A stretch of DNA of 64,000 nt, from positions 1 to 64,000 of the forward strand of contig NZ_QOHF01000022.1 of the NCBI RefSeq assembly GCF_003319115.1, in the 5' to 3' direction. Position numbers and translations under genes: made by a program. The notes beneath the pieces were generated by a model. It was not told the origin of the DNA, did no database searches, and worked only from the letters and a program-made list of their open reading frames with translations. The stretch comes from Geodermatophilus sp. TF02-6. GTDB taxonomy: Bacteria > Actinomycetota > Actinomycetes > Mycobacteriales > Geodermatophilaceae. Of the stretch, positions 6,062-35,484 are shown in pieces. Positions within the stretch are counted from its first letter, which is position 1. Each line of letters opens with the position of its first letter.

Positions 6062-6508
6062 GTGAGCGACACAGGGGACCCGCGGCAGAGCCTCGGCCTG
6101 CTCTGCTTCTACCCGCACCGGGCCCTGGAGTCGCGCCTCCTGGGAGAGCTGGCCGCGGCCGGGTTCGACGACATCACCATGGCGCAGGGCCGCATCGCCG
6201 CCCGGATCGGCCCGGCCGGCACCCGGCTCACCGACCTGGCCGCGCAGGCGCTGGTGACCAAGCAGACCGCGGGTCACCTCGTCGACCAGCTGGAACGAGC
6301 CGGCTACGTCCGGCGGGTGCCCGACCCCACCGACGCCCGGGCCCGGCTGGTGCAGGTGGCCGAGCGCGGCCAGGAGGTCGTGGCGGTGGCCCGCCGGGTC
6401 GAGGCCGAGGTGGAGGCCGAGTGGACGGCGTACCTGGGGGAGGAGGCCACCGCCGCGCTGCGCGCGGCTCTGGAGCGGCTGCGGGAGATCACCGACCCGT
6501 ACCGCTGA
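6062..6508 (+). CDS. MarR-family transcriptional regulator
   Basis: 148 residues with the MarR winged helix: RLTDLAAQALVTKQTAGHLVDQ recognition region followed by LERAGYVRRVPDPTDARARL, the beta-hairpin wing. N- and C-terminal helices give the usual dimer interface. GTG start at 6062 is preceded by AAGGGGGGA. It is divergent from the mycothiol-enzyme gene with a perfect palindrome between them, suggesting local repression and autoregulation. Its ligand cannot be told from sequence. Confidence 0.88.
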   Translation: MSDTGDPRQSLGLLCFYPHRALESRLLGELAAAGFDDITMAQGRIAARIGPAGTRLTDLAAQALVTKQTAGHLVDQLERAGYVRRVPDPTDARARLVQVAERGQEVVAVARRVEAEVEAEWTAYLGEEATAALRAALERLREITDPYR

Positions 6509-27926: not shown

Positions 27927-28001
27927 ACGGAGGCTCCGCGCACCTGCGACGCGCTCGGAGCCCAGGGACCGCTGGAGCCCCCGGTGCCGCCGACGGTCGC
28001 C

Positions 28002-28076
28002 GTGGTGGGCGATGGCGTGGTGGTCGATGGCGTGGTGGTCGATGGCGTGGTGGTCGATGGCGTGGTGGGCGATGGC
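28002..28076. repeat. 15-bp tandem repeat, five copies
   Basis: GTGGTGGTCGATGGC at 28017, 28032 and 28047, flanked by copies with one T-to-G change at 28002 and 28062. It occupies the gap between two divergent leaderless promoters. Confidence 0.92.
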
Positions 28077-28100
28077 GGGAGCACCGCCGGGCAGGACCGC

Positions 28101-28106
28101 TAGCGT
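28101..28106 (+). promoter_or_regulatory. -10 box of leaderless membrane-protein gene
   Basis: TAGCGT, 7 nt, then GTG at 28114. Confidence 0.45.
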
Positions 28107-28113
28107 CAGGGAG

Positions 28114-29196
28114 GTGCCGTGGCTGCGCAGTGCACGGGCGCGTGTCGGAGCGCCGACCCTCGTGCTGGGCGTCCTGCTGGCAGCCGTGGTCGTCGAGGCC
28201 GTCCACGAGTTGACCGCTGGTCCCGACCGGCTCGTCAACGACTGGCTGCACGACACCGTCATCCTCGTGGCGGCGGTCATGTGCGCCGCGGGAGCCGCGC
28301 GCCATGCCCGTGACCGACGGGCCTGGACGCTCTTGGCCGCGGCCGTGTTCTGCGTGTGGGTCGGGGAGGCGCTCTGGGGGCTGCTGGGGCTGAGCAGCGA
28401 CCGGGTCGTCCCGTACCCCAACGCGACCGACGTCTTCTCCCTGGCCTGCTACCCGCTGTTCATGTCCGGCCTCGTCCTGCTGGTGCGGGCTCGCGTGGCA
28501 CGCATCGAGTGGCACCGGTGGCTGGACGGGTTCGTCATGGTCCTCATCGTGGCCACCCCGATGGTGGCGCTGGTCGTCCAACCCGTCCTCCGGAACGCCC
28601 CGCCCGACCCCCTCGGGCAGGTCGTGACGTTGAGCTACCCGCTCAGTGACCTGCTCCTCCTCGGCGCCCTGCTCGGGGCGCTCCCGCTGATGAACTGGCG
28701 GGTGGACGCGAGCTGGTCCTGGCTCGGCCTGGGGTTGGTCTGCCTGACCGTGGGCGACGCCGTGTACTCGGTCGCCGCCGTCGAGGCCAGGTACCACGAG
28801 GGGCCCTACGACTTCCTCTGGAGCGCCGCCTCCGTGGCGATCGCCGTGGCGGCCTGGCGTCCGGCGGTCGAGTTCGACCCGGGCGCGCAGATCGTCGGGT
28901 GGTCGGCGGTCGTCCTGCCGCTCGGGGCACAGGTCTTCGCGGTGGCCACCCAGGTGTACGCCTACTTCTACGAGCTGCCGCGACTCGAGCGGCTCCTGAC
29001 CATCGCGGTCCTGGGCATCGGGATCGCCCAGATCATCGCCTCCCGTCCGCGCGCGCCCGACACGGTCCCGACGCCGTCGTCCGCAACACCCGCGGACGGA
29101 CGGGGAGCCTGGCCCGGCGACCTGCCGCTGGTGCGGCCCGACCGAGCCGGGACCCGGTTCCCGCCGGGACACGGCAGCGACCCCCCGGGGCGGTGA
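28114..29196 (+). CDS. multi-spanning membrane protein of unknown function
   Basis: 360 residues with about nine to ten hydrophobic segments (for example LVLGVLLAAVVVEAV at 14-28, WTLLAAAVFCVWVGEALWGL near 70-90, LLLLGALLGALPLM near 175-190) and a hydrophilic Pro-rich tail after about 310. The arrangement resembles the membrane sensory region found in front of GGDEF/EAL domains in Geodermatophilaceae, but no such domain follows. GTG at 28114 is chosen by the TAGCGT box 7 nt upstream. Function not assigned; a truncated sensor is one possibility. Confidence 0.65.
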   Translation: MPWLRSARARVGAPTLVLGVLLAAVVVEAVHELTAGPDRLVNDWLHDTVILVAAVMCAAGAARHARDRRAWTLLAAAVFCVWVGEALWGLLGLSSDRVVPYPNATDVFSLACYPLFMSGLVLLVRARVARIEWHRWLDGFVMVLIVATPMVALVVQPVLRNAPPDPLGQVVTLSYPLSDLLLLGALLGALPLMNWRVDASWSWLGLGLVCLTVGDAVYSVAAVEARYHEGPYDFLWSAASVAIAVAAWRPAVEFDPGAQIVGWSAVVLPLGAQVFAVATQVYAYFYELPRLERLLTIAVLGIGIAQIIASRPRAPDTVPTPSSATPADGRGAWPGDLPLVRPDRAGTRFPPGHGSDPPGR

Positions 29197-29224
29197 TCGC
29201 CGGTCCGCGGTGCTCCCGAGGCGG

Positions 29225-30232
<1,008 letters not shown>

Positions 30233-30238
30233 GACTCC

Positions 30239-30248
30239 ACCGTAGGCT
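30239..30248. promoter_or_regulatory. overlapping divergent -10 boxes of selD and tRNA-Sec
   Basis: In ACCGTAGGCT the reverse strand reads TACGGT (30244-30239), 6 nt before the selD GTG. The forward strand reads TAGGCT (30243-30248), 7 nt before the first base of tRNA-Sec. Both would place transcription starts at the gene ends and share the TA at 30243-30244. Confidence 0.55.
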
Positions 30249-30255
30249 GACCGGC

Positions 30256-30351
30256 GGAGGCGTCAGGGCGCCTGGTGGCCCCCGCGGCCTCTAAAGCCGA
30301 CGTGGCCGAGCAGCTCGGTCAGGCGGGTTCGATTCCCGTCCGCCTCCGCCA
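30256..30351 (+). tRNA. selC: selenocysteine tRNA, anticodon CUA (reads UAG)
   Basis: 96 nt including an encoded CCA. Acceptor arms GGAGGCG (30256-30262) and CGCCTCC (30341-30347), then discriminator G and CCA. A long variable arm GGCCGAG/CTCGGTC (about 30304-30320) and TTCGATT T-loop are typical of tRNA-Sec. The anticodon loop is CTCTAAA at 30289-30295, so positions 34-36 are C-T-A (30291-30293) rather than TCA; it decodes UAG. The eighth acceptor pair is a T-C mismatch. Lies inside the sel gene island. Confidence 0.92.
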
Positions 30352-30424
30352 GCCGGCCGTCCGGCCGGGGTCGACCGCCCCGGCCGGACGCCCAGGACAG
30401 CGACGTCCCGAGGAGGCACCGACG

Positions 30425-31033
30425 GTGGCACGCATCCCGCTGATCTCCGGCGACGACCCGGACGCCGACCCGAAGGCCCGTGAGCTGCTGGCGATGGTGC
30501 GCCAGAACCGCGGGCGCGAGGTGAACGTCTACCGCGGGATCGCCAACCACCCCGAGATCCTCGAGGCGGTGCTCCACCTGGGGCAGGTGGCCTACTTCGG
30601 CAACAGCCTCGACCCGGTGCAGCGGGAGCTGGCCTACTACACCTCCGCCGTCACGAACGAGTGCTTCTACTAGACGCCGACCCACGTGGTGCTCGGTCGG
30701 AGCGCCGGGATCAGCGACGAGCAGATGGCGCACGTCCTCGACGACCCGCTGCCCGCGGGGCTGTTCACCCCCGGCCAGGAGGCGATCGTCGTCTTCTGCC
30801 GGAAGTCCACCCTGATGCAGCCCATCGACGACGCCACGTGGACGGCGCTGACCGAGCACTTCACCACCCGGCAGATCATGGAGATCACCTTCACCTGCGG
30901 GCTGAACCAGATGATCAGCCGCTTCCACGCCGCCGTCCGCACCGACGTGGACACGCAGACGATGGACCAGCTGGGCGCCTCGTGCCCGGTCCGGCTGCCC
31001 TCGCTCCCCGCCGAGGGGCCGACCGAGGGGTGA
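30425..31033 (+). CDS. AhpD/carboxymuconolactone-decarboxylase-like selenoprotein with in-frame UAG
   Basis: 202 residues if UAG at 30671-30673 is read as Sec83. The sequence around it is TNEC-FY-U-TPTHVVLGRSAG, i.e. the AhpD-type CxxC motif with its second Cys replaced and the His of TPTH retained. Similarity continues on both sides of the UAG in the same frame. A hairpin with loop GGTCG follows 14 nt after the codon. CMD/AhpD proteins are thiol-based peroxidase or reductase-like enzymes; Sec would be the reactive residue. GTG at 30425 after GAGGAGGC. Without recoding the product would be an 82-residue stub. Confidence 0.9.
30688..30706 (+). promoter_or_regulatory. candidate SECIS hairpin of the AhpD-like selenoprotein
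   Basis: GGTGCTC (30688-30694) pairs with GAGCGCC (30700-30706), seven pairs with one G-T wobble, and a five-base loop GGTCG. It starts 15 bases after the UAG. The GGUC loop recalls the apical loop of the E. coli fdhF SECIS. Confidence 0.6.
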
Positions 31034-31172
31034 AGCGGCCGAGAGGACGGTGGCCCACAACCGGATGGCGCGCTACCGTCGTTGTTCGGGATGTGGCCTG
31101 TCCCACGTCCCGGGCCAGGCGGCGTCCGGGCAGGTGAGTCGACGGCGCCGCTCCCGAGCCCAGGGGGCTCAC

Positions 31173-32316
31173 ATGACCGCACCGCCGGCGGTCGGCACCG
31201 TCCACGTCGTCGACCCCTCGCCGCTGAACTGGTTGTTCATCACCTGGAACACCATGGAGGAGCCGATCCGCATCGACGAGGCCGGCCGCACCGTGTACGC
31301 GCTGGCCGAGTCCTCGCAGTGGCTCGACGACCGGACCCTGGAGCTGAAGCTGCGGCGCGGGGTCCGCTTCCAGGACGGCGAGCACTGCACCGCGCACAGC
31401 ATCAAGCAGAACTTCGACGAGATGCAGCGCTGGGCCGCCCCGCACCCGCCGGGCACCTGGCTGAACTTCCCGGCGCCGGAGTCGACCGCCGAGGTGGTCG
31501 ACGAGCACACCGTGCGCTTCTCCCTGCCCGGCCCCGACGGGCTGGCCATGGGCGAGTTCCGCGGCTTCCACATCGCCAGCTCGGCGTTCTGGAACGGCAA
31601 GGACGCCCCCGGCTTCGGCTACGAGGAGTTCGGCTCCGGTGAGGGCCACTGGTAGGTGATCGACGAGCCGGGCCCGTGGGGCACCGGTCCGTTCACCCTG
31701 GTCCAGGGTGCCTCCTCGATCACCACCCGCCTGGCGGTCATGAGCGCCGCCCCGTTCCGGGCGACCTCGATCGTCGACAGCGAGCAGCGCGACCCGCAGG
31801 TCGTGCTGGAGGCCAACCTCGACCACTGGAACCGCGCCGCCCGCGGTCCGCGGATCGAGCGCGCCGTCTTCCGCAACGACCTGACCCCCGACGAGGCGCT
31901 GCGGCTGGTCTGCGACACCGAGGGCGAGGTCGACATCGTCACCGAGGTCTCCCCGGCCGACGCCCGGCGCGTGCTGGACTCCGCGCACGCCCGGCTGGTC
32001 GTCTGCGACGCCAACCGCGTGCTGGTGGGCATCGTCAACCGCGGCAGCGACGCGCCGCCGGACGACGTCGCGGATCGACCGGCACGTGCACGAGCAGGCG
32101 CTCGCGCTGTTCGTCTGCGCGCCCCAGGCGCTGTACGCGGTCAACGAGCACGTGTCGTTCACCCCGTACAAGACCACCTTCGAGCTCGCCGAGGTCACCG
32201 TCGACGAGCAGCACTGGTCGGTCACCGGCGGCGGGGCCGAGCTCGGCGACCGGACCCGGGTCCGGTCGACGAGCGGCAAGCCCACCTTCACGCAGGCCTC
32301 GGGCAACGCCTGCTGA
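31173..32316 (+). pseudogene. selenocysteine-containing ABC transporter substrate-binding-like protein, disrupted
   Basis: Family-5 solute-binding-like sequence without a signal peptide (DPSPLNWLFITWNTMEEPIR, VRFQDGEHCTAHSIKQNF). It runs into UAG at 31653-31655 (residue 161) in the context GEGHW-U-VIDEPGPWGTGPF and continues in frame to about 32069 (NRGSDAPPDDV). There the frame shifts by +1, and the family C-terminus resumes as RIDRHVHEQALALFVCAPQ to TGA at 32316. Roughly 130 residues expected between the two parts are missing, so a deletion with frameshift has probably inactivated it. AGGGGG precedes the ATG at 31173. Confidence 0.75.
31668..31687 (+). promoter_or_regulatory. candidate SECIS hairpin of the disrupted selenoprotein
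   Basis: CCGGGCCC (31668-31675), loop GTG, then GGGC-A-CCGG (31679-31687): eight pairs with one bulged A. It starts 13 bases after the UAG, close to the spacing in known bacterial SECIS elements. Confidence 0.55.
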
Positions 32317-32360
32317 CCGGGCGGCGGGGGCAGTCCGCCACCGGGCCGCCCCCGCCGCCC

Positions 32361-32366
32361 TAGGCT
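32361..32366 (+). promoter_or_regulatory. -10 box of leaderless selA-selB transcript
   Basis: TAGGCT, 8 nt, then ATG of selA at 32375. Confidence 0.5.
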
Positions 32367-32374
32367 CGGCGCCG

Positions 32375-33685
32375 ATGAGAGCCGATCCGCGGCGGCGCGT
32401 GCCGCGCACCGACACGCTGCTCGCCGACCCCGAGCTGGCCGCGGCCTCGGCGCGGCTGGGCCGGGAGCTGGTCAAGACCGCCGTCGCGCAGGTGCAGCAG
32501 CGCATCCGGGACGGCGCGCTCGCGCCCGCCGACGCCGTGCCCGCCGTCCTCTCCGGCCTGTCCGCGACGGCGAGCAGCCTGCGGCCGGTGCTCAACGCCA
32601 CCGGCGTCCTCGTGCACACCAACCTGGGCCGCGCGCCGCTGTCGCCGGCCGCGCTCGAGGCGGTCGTCGCCGCTGGCGCCACCACCGACGTCGAGCTGGA
32701 CCTGGTCACCGGCCGCCGCGGACCGCGCGGGGAGGCGGCGATCGCCGCGCTGCTGACCGCCGTCCCCGCGGCCGAGGCGGCGCTCGTGGTCAACAACTGC
32801 GCCGCCGCCCTCGCGCTGACGGCGACCGCGCTCGGCGGGGAGCTGGTCATCGCCCGCGGCGAGCTGGTGGAGATCGGCGACGGGTTCCGCATCCCCGAGC
32901 TGCTGGAGGCCACCGGCGCCCGGCTGCGCGAGGTCGGGACGACCAACCGGGTGACCCTCGCCGACTACCGCGCCGCCCTGTCCGAGCAGACCGGCGCGGT
33001 GCTCAAGGTGCACCCGTCGAACTTCGTCGTCCGCGGGTTCACCCGGTCCGTGCCGGTGGCCGAGCTCGCCGCCGGGCTGGCCGGCAGCGGCGTCCCGCTG
33101 GTCGCCGACGTCGGGTCGGGGCTGCTGCGCCCGCACCCGGTGCTGCCCGACGAGCCAGACCTGCAGACCACCCTCGCCGACGGCGCCGACCTGGTGCTGG
33201 CCAGCGGCGACAAGCTGCTGGGCGGGCCGCAGGCCGGGCTGGTGCTCGGCCGCGCCGAGCTGGCGCAGCGGCTGCGCCGGCACCCGCTCTACCGCGCCTT
33301 CCGCGTCGACAAGACCACCCTGGCCGCGCTGGAGGCCACGCTGCGCGGACCGCTGCCGCCGGTGCAGCAGATGCTCGCCGCCGACGTCGCCGGGCTGCGC
33401 CGCCGCGCCCGGGGGCTGGCCGCCCGGCTGGCCGCCGCCGGCCTGGACGCGGTGGCGGTGGACTCCGAGGCGCGGGTCGGCGGGGGAGGGGCGCCCGAGC
33501 ACCCGCTGCCCAGCGCCGCCGTCTCGCTGCCCGCGGAGTTCGCCGCGCCGCTGCGCGCCGGCACACCGCCGGTGGTCGGGTACCTGGCCGGCGACCGCAC
33601 CCTGCTCGACCTGCGCAGCCTGCGCACCGAGGACGACGAGGCGCTGGCCGCCGCGGTGCTGGAGGTGGCGATCCGGTGCCGGTGA
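32375..33685 (+). CDS. selA: L-seryl-tRNA(Sec) selenium transferase
   Basis: 436 residues. Fold-type I PLP enzyme: [39 protein letters not shown], and the PLP-binding Lys280 in [14 protein letters not shown]. Converts Ser-tRNA(Sec) to Sec-tRNA(Sec) with selenophosphate from SelD. ATG at 32375 is preceded by TAGGCT and no ribosome-binding site, suggesting a leaderless message shared with selB, which starts 53 bases after the selA stop. Confidence 0.96.
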
Positions 33686-33691
33686 CCCCCG

Positions 33692-33747
33692 ACGGCATGG
33701 ACGTGACGGCGTGGACGTGACGGCGTGGACGTGACGGCGTGGACGTG
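33692..33747 (+). repeat. 14-bp tandem repeat duplicating the selB start site
   Basis: Four exact-length units ACGGC[A/G]TGGACGTG at 33692, 33706, 33720 and 33734. Because 14 is not a multiple of three, each copy presents [A/G]TG-GAC-GTG in a new frame. The first three open seven-codon frames ending in TGA; the fourth (GTG at 33739) is selB. Confidence 0.95.
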
Positions 33748-35484
33748 ATCGCCACCGCCGGCCACGTCGACCACGGCAAGTCGACGCTGGTCCGGGCGCT
33801 CACCGGCATGGAGCCCGACCGGTGGGAGGAGGAGCGCCGCCGCGGGCTGACCATCGACCTGGGCTTCGCCTGGACGACGCTGCCCTCGGGCCGCCGGCTG
33901 GCGGTCGTCGACGTCCCCGGGCACGAGCGGTTCGTCGGCAACATGCTCGCCGGCGTCGGCTCGGTGCCCGCCGCGCTGGTCGTGGTGGCGGCGGACGACG
34001 GCTGGTCGGCGCAGACCGCCGAGCACGTCGCCGTCCTCGACGCCCTCGGGGTGCGCTCCGCGCTGCTGGCGGTGACCAAGGCCGACCTCGCCGACCCGGC
34101 GCCGGTGCTGGCCGACGTCCGGGCGCGGCTGGCGGGGACCTCGATGGGGGAGGTGCCCGGCGTGGCGGTCAGCGCCGCCACCGGAGCCGGCGTGCCCGAC
34201 GTCGTCGCGGCGCTGGAAGCGGTGCTCGCGGGGCTGCCGGCCCCCGACCGCGAGGCGCCGGTGCGGCTGTGGATCGACCGGGCCTTCCCGATCAAGGGCG
34301 CCGGCACCGTGGTCACCGGCACCCTCGCCGCCGGGCGCGTCGCCCCCGGCGACCGGCTGCAGCTCGGCGACCGCGAGGTCGGCGTCCGCGGCGTGCAGTC
34401 GCTGGGCCGACCGGTGCAGCGGGCCGAGGCCACCGCGCGGGTGGCGCTGAACCTGCGTGGCACCGCGGTGGAGGAGCTGGCCCGCGGCGACGCGCTGCTC
34501 ACCCCGGGCGCGTTCCGCTCCACCGCCGACCTCGACGTGACCCTCGACCGGCAGCCCGAGGAGCGCCTGCCGGCCGAGGCGGTCGTGCACGTCGGCTCGG
34601 CCGCGGTGGGCGCCCGGCTGCGGCCCCTGGAGGGGACGGCGGTGCGGCTGCGGCTGGTCACGCCGCTGCCGCTGCGGGTCGGCGACCGCCTGCTGCTGCG
34701 CGACCCCGGCGCCCGGCGGGTGCTCGGCGCCGACGTCCGCGACGTCGACCCGCCGGAACTGCGCCGCCGTGGAGCGGCCCGCCGGCGCGGCGCCGAGCTG
34801 GCCGGGCAGCCCGCGGGCGCGGCCGGCGCCGCCGCCGACCTGGCCCGGCGCCGCGTGGTCCGGGCCGCGGACTTCGCCGCGATGGGATGGCCGGTCCCCG
34901 AGGGCGCGACCGCCGTCGGGCCGTGGCTGCTCGCCCCCGGGCTGGTCGACGAGCTGGCCGCCGCGCTGCCGGACGTGGTGACCCGCTACCGGCGGCTGCG
35001 GCCGCTGGAGGCCGGCCCGCCGGTCGCCGTCGTCCAGCGGGCCCTGGACCTGCCCGGCCCCGAGCTGGTCCCCGCCGTCGTCCGTCCGCCGCTGGCGCTG
35101 CGCGAGGGTCGGGTGGCCGCGGCGACCGCGGGGCTGCCGCCGGCCGTGCAGCGGGCGGTCGACGACCTCCGCGCCCGCCTGGCGGCCGACCCGTTCGCCG
35201 CGCCGGAGGCGCCGGACCTGGCCGCCGCCGGCCTGGGCCCGCGGGAGCTGGCCGCCGCCGTCCGCGACGGTCAGCTGGTCAAGGTCGCCGACGGGGTGTA
35301 CCTGGCGCCCGGGGTGGAGCAGGTCGCGCGCGAGCGGCTGACCGGGCTGGCCGCGCCGTTCACCCTCAGCCAGGCCCGCTCGGCGTGGAGGACCACCCGG
35401 CGGGTGGCCGTGCCGCTCATGGAGCGGCTCGACGCCCGCGGGATCACCGAGCGGCTGCCGGACAACACCCGCCGACTGCGCTAG
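33739..35484 (+). CDS. selB: selenocysteine-specific elongation factor SelB
   Basis: 581 residues. N-terminal EF-Tu-like GTPase ([46 protein letters not shown]), beta-barrel domains to about 345, then four winged-helix repeats that bind SECIS RNA (for example [13 protein letters not shown] and [13 protein letters not shown] at the end). Delivers Sec-tRNA to UAG here. GTG at 33739 is the last copy of a four-fold repeated start site. It ends in TAG at 35482-35484, the only intact gene in the window to do so. Confidence 0.94.

Follow-up and report, generated by a model that had tools for sequence, protein, structure and literature searches.

The window, the whole stretch of 64,000 nucleotides that was analysed, almost certainly holds a complete bacterial selenocysteine (Sec) insertion system with a tRNA-Sec of anticodon CUA, by which UAG would be read as Sec. 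The observations that carry this reading are the identity of the tRNA and its anticodon, the adjoining sel genes, TAG codons at the Sec sites of CUA hosts, covarying SECIS hairpins and a branch of the SelA tree that sets the CUA rows apart. Judged from the sequence, selC of the window is real and recoded; it is of an already known kind, since UAG-Sec in the family was reported in 2016–17. New here are the CMD and SBP clients, a family-wide survey and a relative with two tRNAs. The features are given in Table 1.

Table 1. Features of the sel locus, with positions counted from the first nucleotide of the window
Feature	Position	Strand	Details
selD, selenide water dikinase, divergent from selC	29225..30232	-	TIGR00476 379.6 bits (cut-off 125)
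selC, tRNA-Sec with CUA anticodon	30256..30351	+	96 nt; anticodon 30291-30293; G73; encoded CCA
CMD/AhpD-like selenoprotein gene (predicted)	30425..31030	+	TAG 30671-30673 in NECFY-U-TPTHV (CxxU); stop TGA
Putative SECIS hairpin of the CMD gene	30688..30706	+	7-bp stem; GGUCG apical loop; 14 nt after UAG
SBP1, family-5 solute-binding protein gene	31173..32316	+	Sec TAG 31653-31655 in GEGHW-U-VIDEPGPWGTGPF; SBP_bac_5 68.5 bits (Pfam)
selA, L-seryl-tRNA(Sec) selenium transferase	32375..33685	+	TIGR00474 419.8 bits (cut-off 267.9)
selB, Sec-specific elongation factor	33739..35484	+	TIGR00475 270.5 bits (cut-off 242.25)

The original prediction had identified a tRNA-Sec from its length of 96 nt, long variable arm and sel context. 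The identification was borne out by the selD, selA and selB neighbours and by the Rfam covariance model RF01852 (tRNA-Sec), which matched positions 30256–30347 from model position 1 to 91 with 65.3 bits (E = 3.3e-12) and thus passes the gathering threshold of 47 bits at full model length. Like bacterial tRNA-Secs, selC combines a score above gathering with a long variable arm and G73. The anticodon loop in the window reads CTCTAAA, and the anticodon CUA that had been derived from it was recovered by ARAGORN, which found a single tRNA in the 64 kb (30256–30351, anticodon CTA), though under the label tRNA-Pyl. The genome to which the window belongs, that of a soil actinobacterium (4.7 Mb, 53 contigs, completeness 100), gave nine matches to RF01852, eight of which were read. 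The window selC is the only tRNA-Sec among these eight, the seven others being tRNAs for Ser (three), Gly, Leu, Lys and Met; a second tRNA-Sec with anticodon UCA, a possibility raised by the prediction, was not present among the eight of nine candidates read. The ninth match (31.8 bits, 70 nt) lies below the cut-off and outside the eight.

Two structural details had been singled out for comparison, a T–C mismatch at the eighth acceptor pair and a short, four-pair anticodon stem. Both are real, but neither is a mark of recoding. The mismatch is ordinary: of the distinct tRNA-Secs compared, all 23 with CUA and 34 of the 35 with UCA have it. The four-pair stem is found in all 23 distinct CUA tRNA-Secs and also in seven of the 35 UCA ones, these seven being the UCA members from Geodermatophilaceae (sequences read by eye). 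The loop-closing pair does track the anticodon, with C–G in 23/23 CUA and U–A in 34/35 UCA tRNAs. As read from the loops, two substitutions separate the UCA from the CUA anticodon.

The genes of the window are arranged in the order selD–selC–selA–selB, with selC inside, and the SelD, SelA and SelB scores all exceed the NCBIfam cut-offs. Every tRNA-Sec is first charged with serine. SelA would convert Ser-tRNA-Sec to Sec-tRNA-Sec with selenophosphate supplied by SelD, and SelB would bring the product to UAG codons that are followed by a SECIS hairpin, where it would compete with RF1 and not with RF2. We infer charging, SelB delivery, competition with RF1 and the presence of Sec in the proteins from known biology. 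The four factors and a SECIS-type hairpin are shared with the standard UGA-Sec system (Escherichia coli selA–D, fdhF), from which the window differs in its CUA anticodon, its UAG codon and, presumably, RF1 as the competitor. UAG evidently remains an ordinary stop elsewhere, for example at the end of selB: of 151 frames predicted by a simple script in stretches from CUA hosts, 16 have TAG as their last codon, among them selB and the broken frame of SBP1. The gene for the elongation factor that would serve UAG-Sec thus has TAG (35482–35484) as its own stop.

The claim that UAG is decoded instead of UGA is supported by the Sec sites of client genes. In CUA hosts, all 53 Sec sites read are TAG (29 FDH, 9 CMD and 15 SBP). 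For FDH (formate dehydrogenase), the sample comprised 31 of 100 genomes with FDH, 30 of them readable. The Sec site is visible in 31 of 33 FDH stretches and is always TAG, namely in 29 of 29 from genomes read as CUA and also in the drafts G432 and G433, where selC was not found. Both misses belong to the CUA genome G164, in which the 5′ end of FDH is rearranged (contig C12, L150) and a second FDH fragment lies on contig C4. A TGA in this gene was considered as a Sec codon and dropped; it sits at the rearranged 5′ end with no recognised Sec site. Of ten CMD matches, nine have the motif, each with TAG and each in a CUA host; only the match in G432 (34% identity) lacks it. For SBP, 17 of 19 matches contain the site and the other two are fragments; 15 sites are TAG (all CUA hosts), one is TGA and one is TAA. 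The TGA belongs to G426, a UCA host within the family, in which the SBP gene lies beside selC. The genome of the window itself has TAG at the Sec sites of two FDHs (contigs C1 and C7), a second solute-binding protein (SBP2, C13) and the window CMD and SBP1, that is, in the same genome as the CUA tRNA. Gene finders aware of UGA-Sec only would break such genes in Geodermatophilaceae.

The TAA stands at the Sec site in G427 (L108, around position 1890, minus strand). Apart from this codon, the SBP gene is conserved but carries a frameshift close to its start. Of the five matches to RF01852 in this genome, one is a tRNA-Sec(UCA) and the others are tRNAs for Trp, Ser, Arg and Gly, and the TAA-bearing copy is the frameshifted one; UAA as a Sec codon is thus unsupported here. 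The codon may equally reflect decay or be a relic of UAA-Sec.

Candidate SECIS hairpins follow the Sec codons. In 20 distinct FDH stretches, the hairpin has a 7-bp stem and a GGUCU loop and starts 11 nt past the codon; a chance match (L139:508–552) was removed before covariation was counted. Paired cells amount to 98.6% (shuffled 86.9%), 17 cells are changed on both sides (shuffled 5.2) and covariation is 0.338 (shuffled 0.142), with 0 of 500 shuffles as high in each case, these shuffles ignoring the relatedness of the 20 stretches. Slid controls reached at most 57.1% pairing and a covariation of at most 0.120. The counts of pairs and of pair types showed no excess over the shuffles (460/500 and 455/500 as high, respectively). 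Two double-changed pairs connect third codon positions, and protein constraint would therefore leave the covariation unexplained. The GGUCU apical loop resembles the SECIS loop of E. coli fdhF. By folding, a hairpin with a GGUC loop was found in nine of nine TAG homologues of CMD, the window included, and the predicted SBP hairpins carry a GUG loop in 15 of 17 stretches and CUG in two.

The predicted CMD protein of the window scores 46.3 bits against Pfam CMD (PF02627; cut-off 23) and 37.5 against TIGR01926, below the cut-off of 81.8. It combines a CMD domain and CxxU with a SECIS-like hairpin downstream, and in the alignment with two solved AhpD-type chains (2ouw and 6e8l), its U falls opposite the second Cys of their CxxC. 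The gene evidently keeps coding past its TAG. Compared with two relatives, changes at codon positions 1/2/3 number 8/6/19 and 9/7/19 after the TAG, and 3/3/19 and 5/3/18 before it; the amino acid differs in 12 of 28 and 13 of 30 changed codons after the TAG and in 7 of 23 and 10 of 25 before it, a somewhat larger share after. A CMD domain with CxxU is listed among selenoprotein families in the part of the 2026 review PMC13188914 available to us. The window protein shares the CMD domain and CxxU with the CMD/AhpD-like selenoproteins (PF02627, TIGR01926) and differs from them in its UAG Sec codon and in scoring below the TIGR01926 cut-off.

SBP1 is probably non-functional in the window, because, compared with the G308 copy, it lacks about 0.54 kb and changes frame at around position 32070. 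A 4-base overlap is present at the deletion junction. The copy in G340 is frame-broken as well, and the gene may thus be undergoing repeated loss. SBP2 aligns almost end to end at 47% and has a single TAG. A homologue with 40% identity on plasmid pNYY1_1 of Methylobacterium radiotolerans has TGA at the same site; this unannotated gene (L350, 6001–7440, TGA at 6451–6453) lies directly upstream of selB, and no tRNA-Sec was found near it on the stretch examined. SBP appears to be a selenoprotein family that the available lists do not include, among them those in the accessible part of PMC13188914. That part describes SaoX and SaoB as substrate-binding selenoproteins of ABC type. Like the SBPs, these are ABC solute-binding proteins with Sec, but their motifs are UxP and CUxxT as opposed to GHWU-VIDxPGPW, and the SaoX and SaoB models (NF040735 and NF040727) gave no match among the NCBIfam hits of L099 and L112 (E 0.001).

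Three other readings of the locus were weighed. That selC is tRNA-Pyl and UAG pyrrolysine is suggested by the ARAGORN label, which is owed to the CTA anticodon, but tRNA-Sec is the sole Rfam family matched in 28000–32500 at E values up to 1, with no match for Pyl. The 96 nt and long variable arm, the 92% identity to UCA tRNA-Secs of sister genera, the selD, selA and selB neighbours and the nature of the TAG sites, which are classic Sec sites (FDH, CxxU), also stand against pyrrolysine, and we regard it as extremely improbable. It is scarcely more credible that the genes are decaying, with the in-frame TAGs as nonsense mutations and the tRNA as a relic. The truncated SBP1 of the window and the broken SBP copy of G340 would fit such decay, but TAG occupies the same residue in 9 CMD, 31 FDH and 15 SBP genes across genera, coding is kept downstream of it in CMD, the SECIS covaries and the CUA tRNA is retained in 101 of the 108 family genomes with selC.

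UAG might instead be read with an ordinary amino acid, the tRNA staying serine-charged and acting as a plain amber suppressor. The established initial charging with serine and the predicted genes that end in UAG are compatible with this. Set against them are selA, selB and selD next to the tRNA, its preserved tRNA-Sec form, the hairpins after the codons and the homologues in G426 and Methylobacterium that have TGA at the SBP site; suppression with serine is accordingly given very little weight.

selC was found in 108 of 112 genomes of the family (E 1e-9), and the four genomes without it are drafts of 72–82% completeness. Among the 108, the anticodon is CUA in 101 and UCA in seven, which belong to three genera (g86–g88). 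One of the CUA genomes (G085, Geodermatophilus sp. LHW52908), from the genus to which the window also belongs, holds an extra UCA copy. The draft G407 (88% completeness) has two CUA copies (L066 and L236), perhaps from a duplicate contig. A midpoint-rooted SelA tree was built from 35 rows (19 CUA, four UCA from the family and 12 UCA from other families), thus covering 19 of the 101 CUA and four of the seven UCA genomes of the family; L076, L158, L159 and L347 had no SelA match on the stretch and are outside it. A branch with support 100/100 has all 19 CUA rows on the same side. The change from UCA to CUA most likely took place once, in the ancestor of the family's main genera, and the Sec sites would have moved from TGA to TAG along with it. 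Viral contigs gave no hit to an exact pattern of the CUA anticodon arm. With the code switch located on a tree as a single event, between UCA sister genera and 101 CUA genomes, the order of anticodon and codon change would become open to study.

UAG-Sec reportedly occurs in Geodermatophilus and Blastococcus. An earlier report to this effect, cited in the original prediction, agrees with the accessible part of PMC5330540 (Santesmasses et al., 2017), which cites Mukai et al. (2016). That part names three Geodermatophilaceae genomes in which the tRNA-Sec has CUA and the UAG-Sec clients are FDH, a UGSC-motif protein and AhpC. The window shares with these genomes the tRNA-Sec(CUA), UAG Sec codons and the FDH client; as far as the same part goes, the differences here are that CMD and SBP clients lie beside selC, that CUA is found in 101 genomes and UCA in sister genera, and that one genome has both tRNAs. 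No description of CMD or SBP clients, or of a genome with CUA and UCA together, was found in titles and abstract starts of the open-licence literature, where absence is no proof. What was a curiosity of few genomes would become one code switch with a position on a tree.

In LHW52908, the native sel locus carries the CUA tRNA-Sec and FDH contains one in-frame TAG (counted in frame only). Its contig C17 (NZ_QVQH01000024.1) carries, on an island, a tRNA-Sec(UCA) of 81.8 bits and an AhpD-like gene (L068, 1169–2157), next to an ISAs1-type transposase. The AhpD-like gene scores above the TIGR01926 cut-off and has one in-frame TGA at CxxU. The contig looks native to the genus: 53–61 kb of it matches all 25 genus genomes searched, LHW52908 included, and from about 6.8 kb onward it is matched by other genus genomes. 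The region 1.0–6.8 kb is matched by no other genus genome searched (E 1e-100), and GC drops to 60–62% within 1.5–4.5 kb. Because this region is unmatched in the genus and low in GC while the rest of the contig appears native, the UGA gene and the UCA tRNA look acquired; the join of the island may alternatively be a misassembly. We consider it moderately probable that LHW52908 inserts Sec at UAG through its native tRNA-Sec(CUA) and at UGA through an acquired tRNA-Sec(UCA), one SelA and one SelB serving both. If so, a foreign selenoprotein would have entered a recoded host together with its own decoder, or found it there, and the strain would provide a natural test of whether one SelB serves two stop codons and of how genes are transferred across a code barrier.

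The UCA tRNA reached a best identity of 86% among 99 tRNA entries (58 distinct), nearly all of the same order. Among 67 loci related to the UGA gene, 63 have TGA (LHW52908 included), one has TGC and three are unreadable; the relatives are mostly from Acidobacteriota, with Planctomycetes and others, and ARAGORN found no tRNA-Sec beside the 66 other loci within the flank taken. The gene had no match at E 1e-25 in 394 class-level genomes, a sample without a known positive, and its best match in the genome of the window is 36% identical and contains no stop. A plasmid search with it returned 37 records, the best 20 of which are all peroxidase-related (27.9% identity). The hairpin predicted for the gene has a 7-bp stem, a GUU loop and an energy of −11.8; among the hairpins folded, only that of the G427 TAA copy (−11.6) is weaker.
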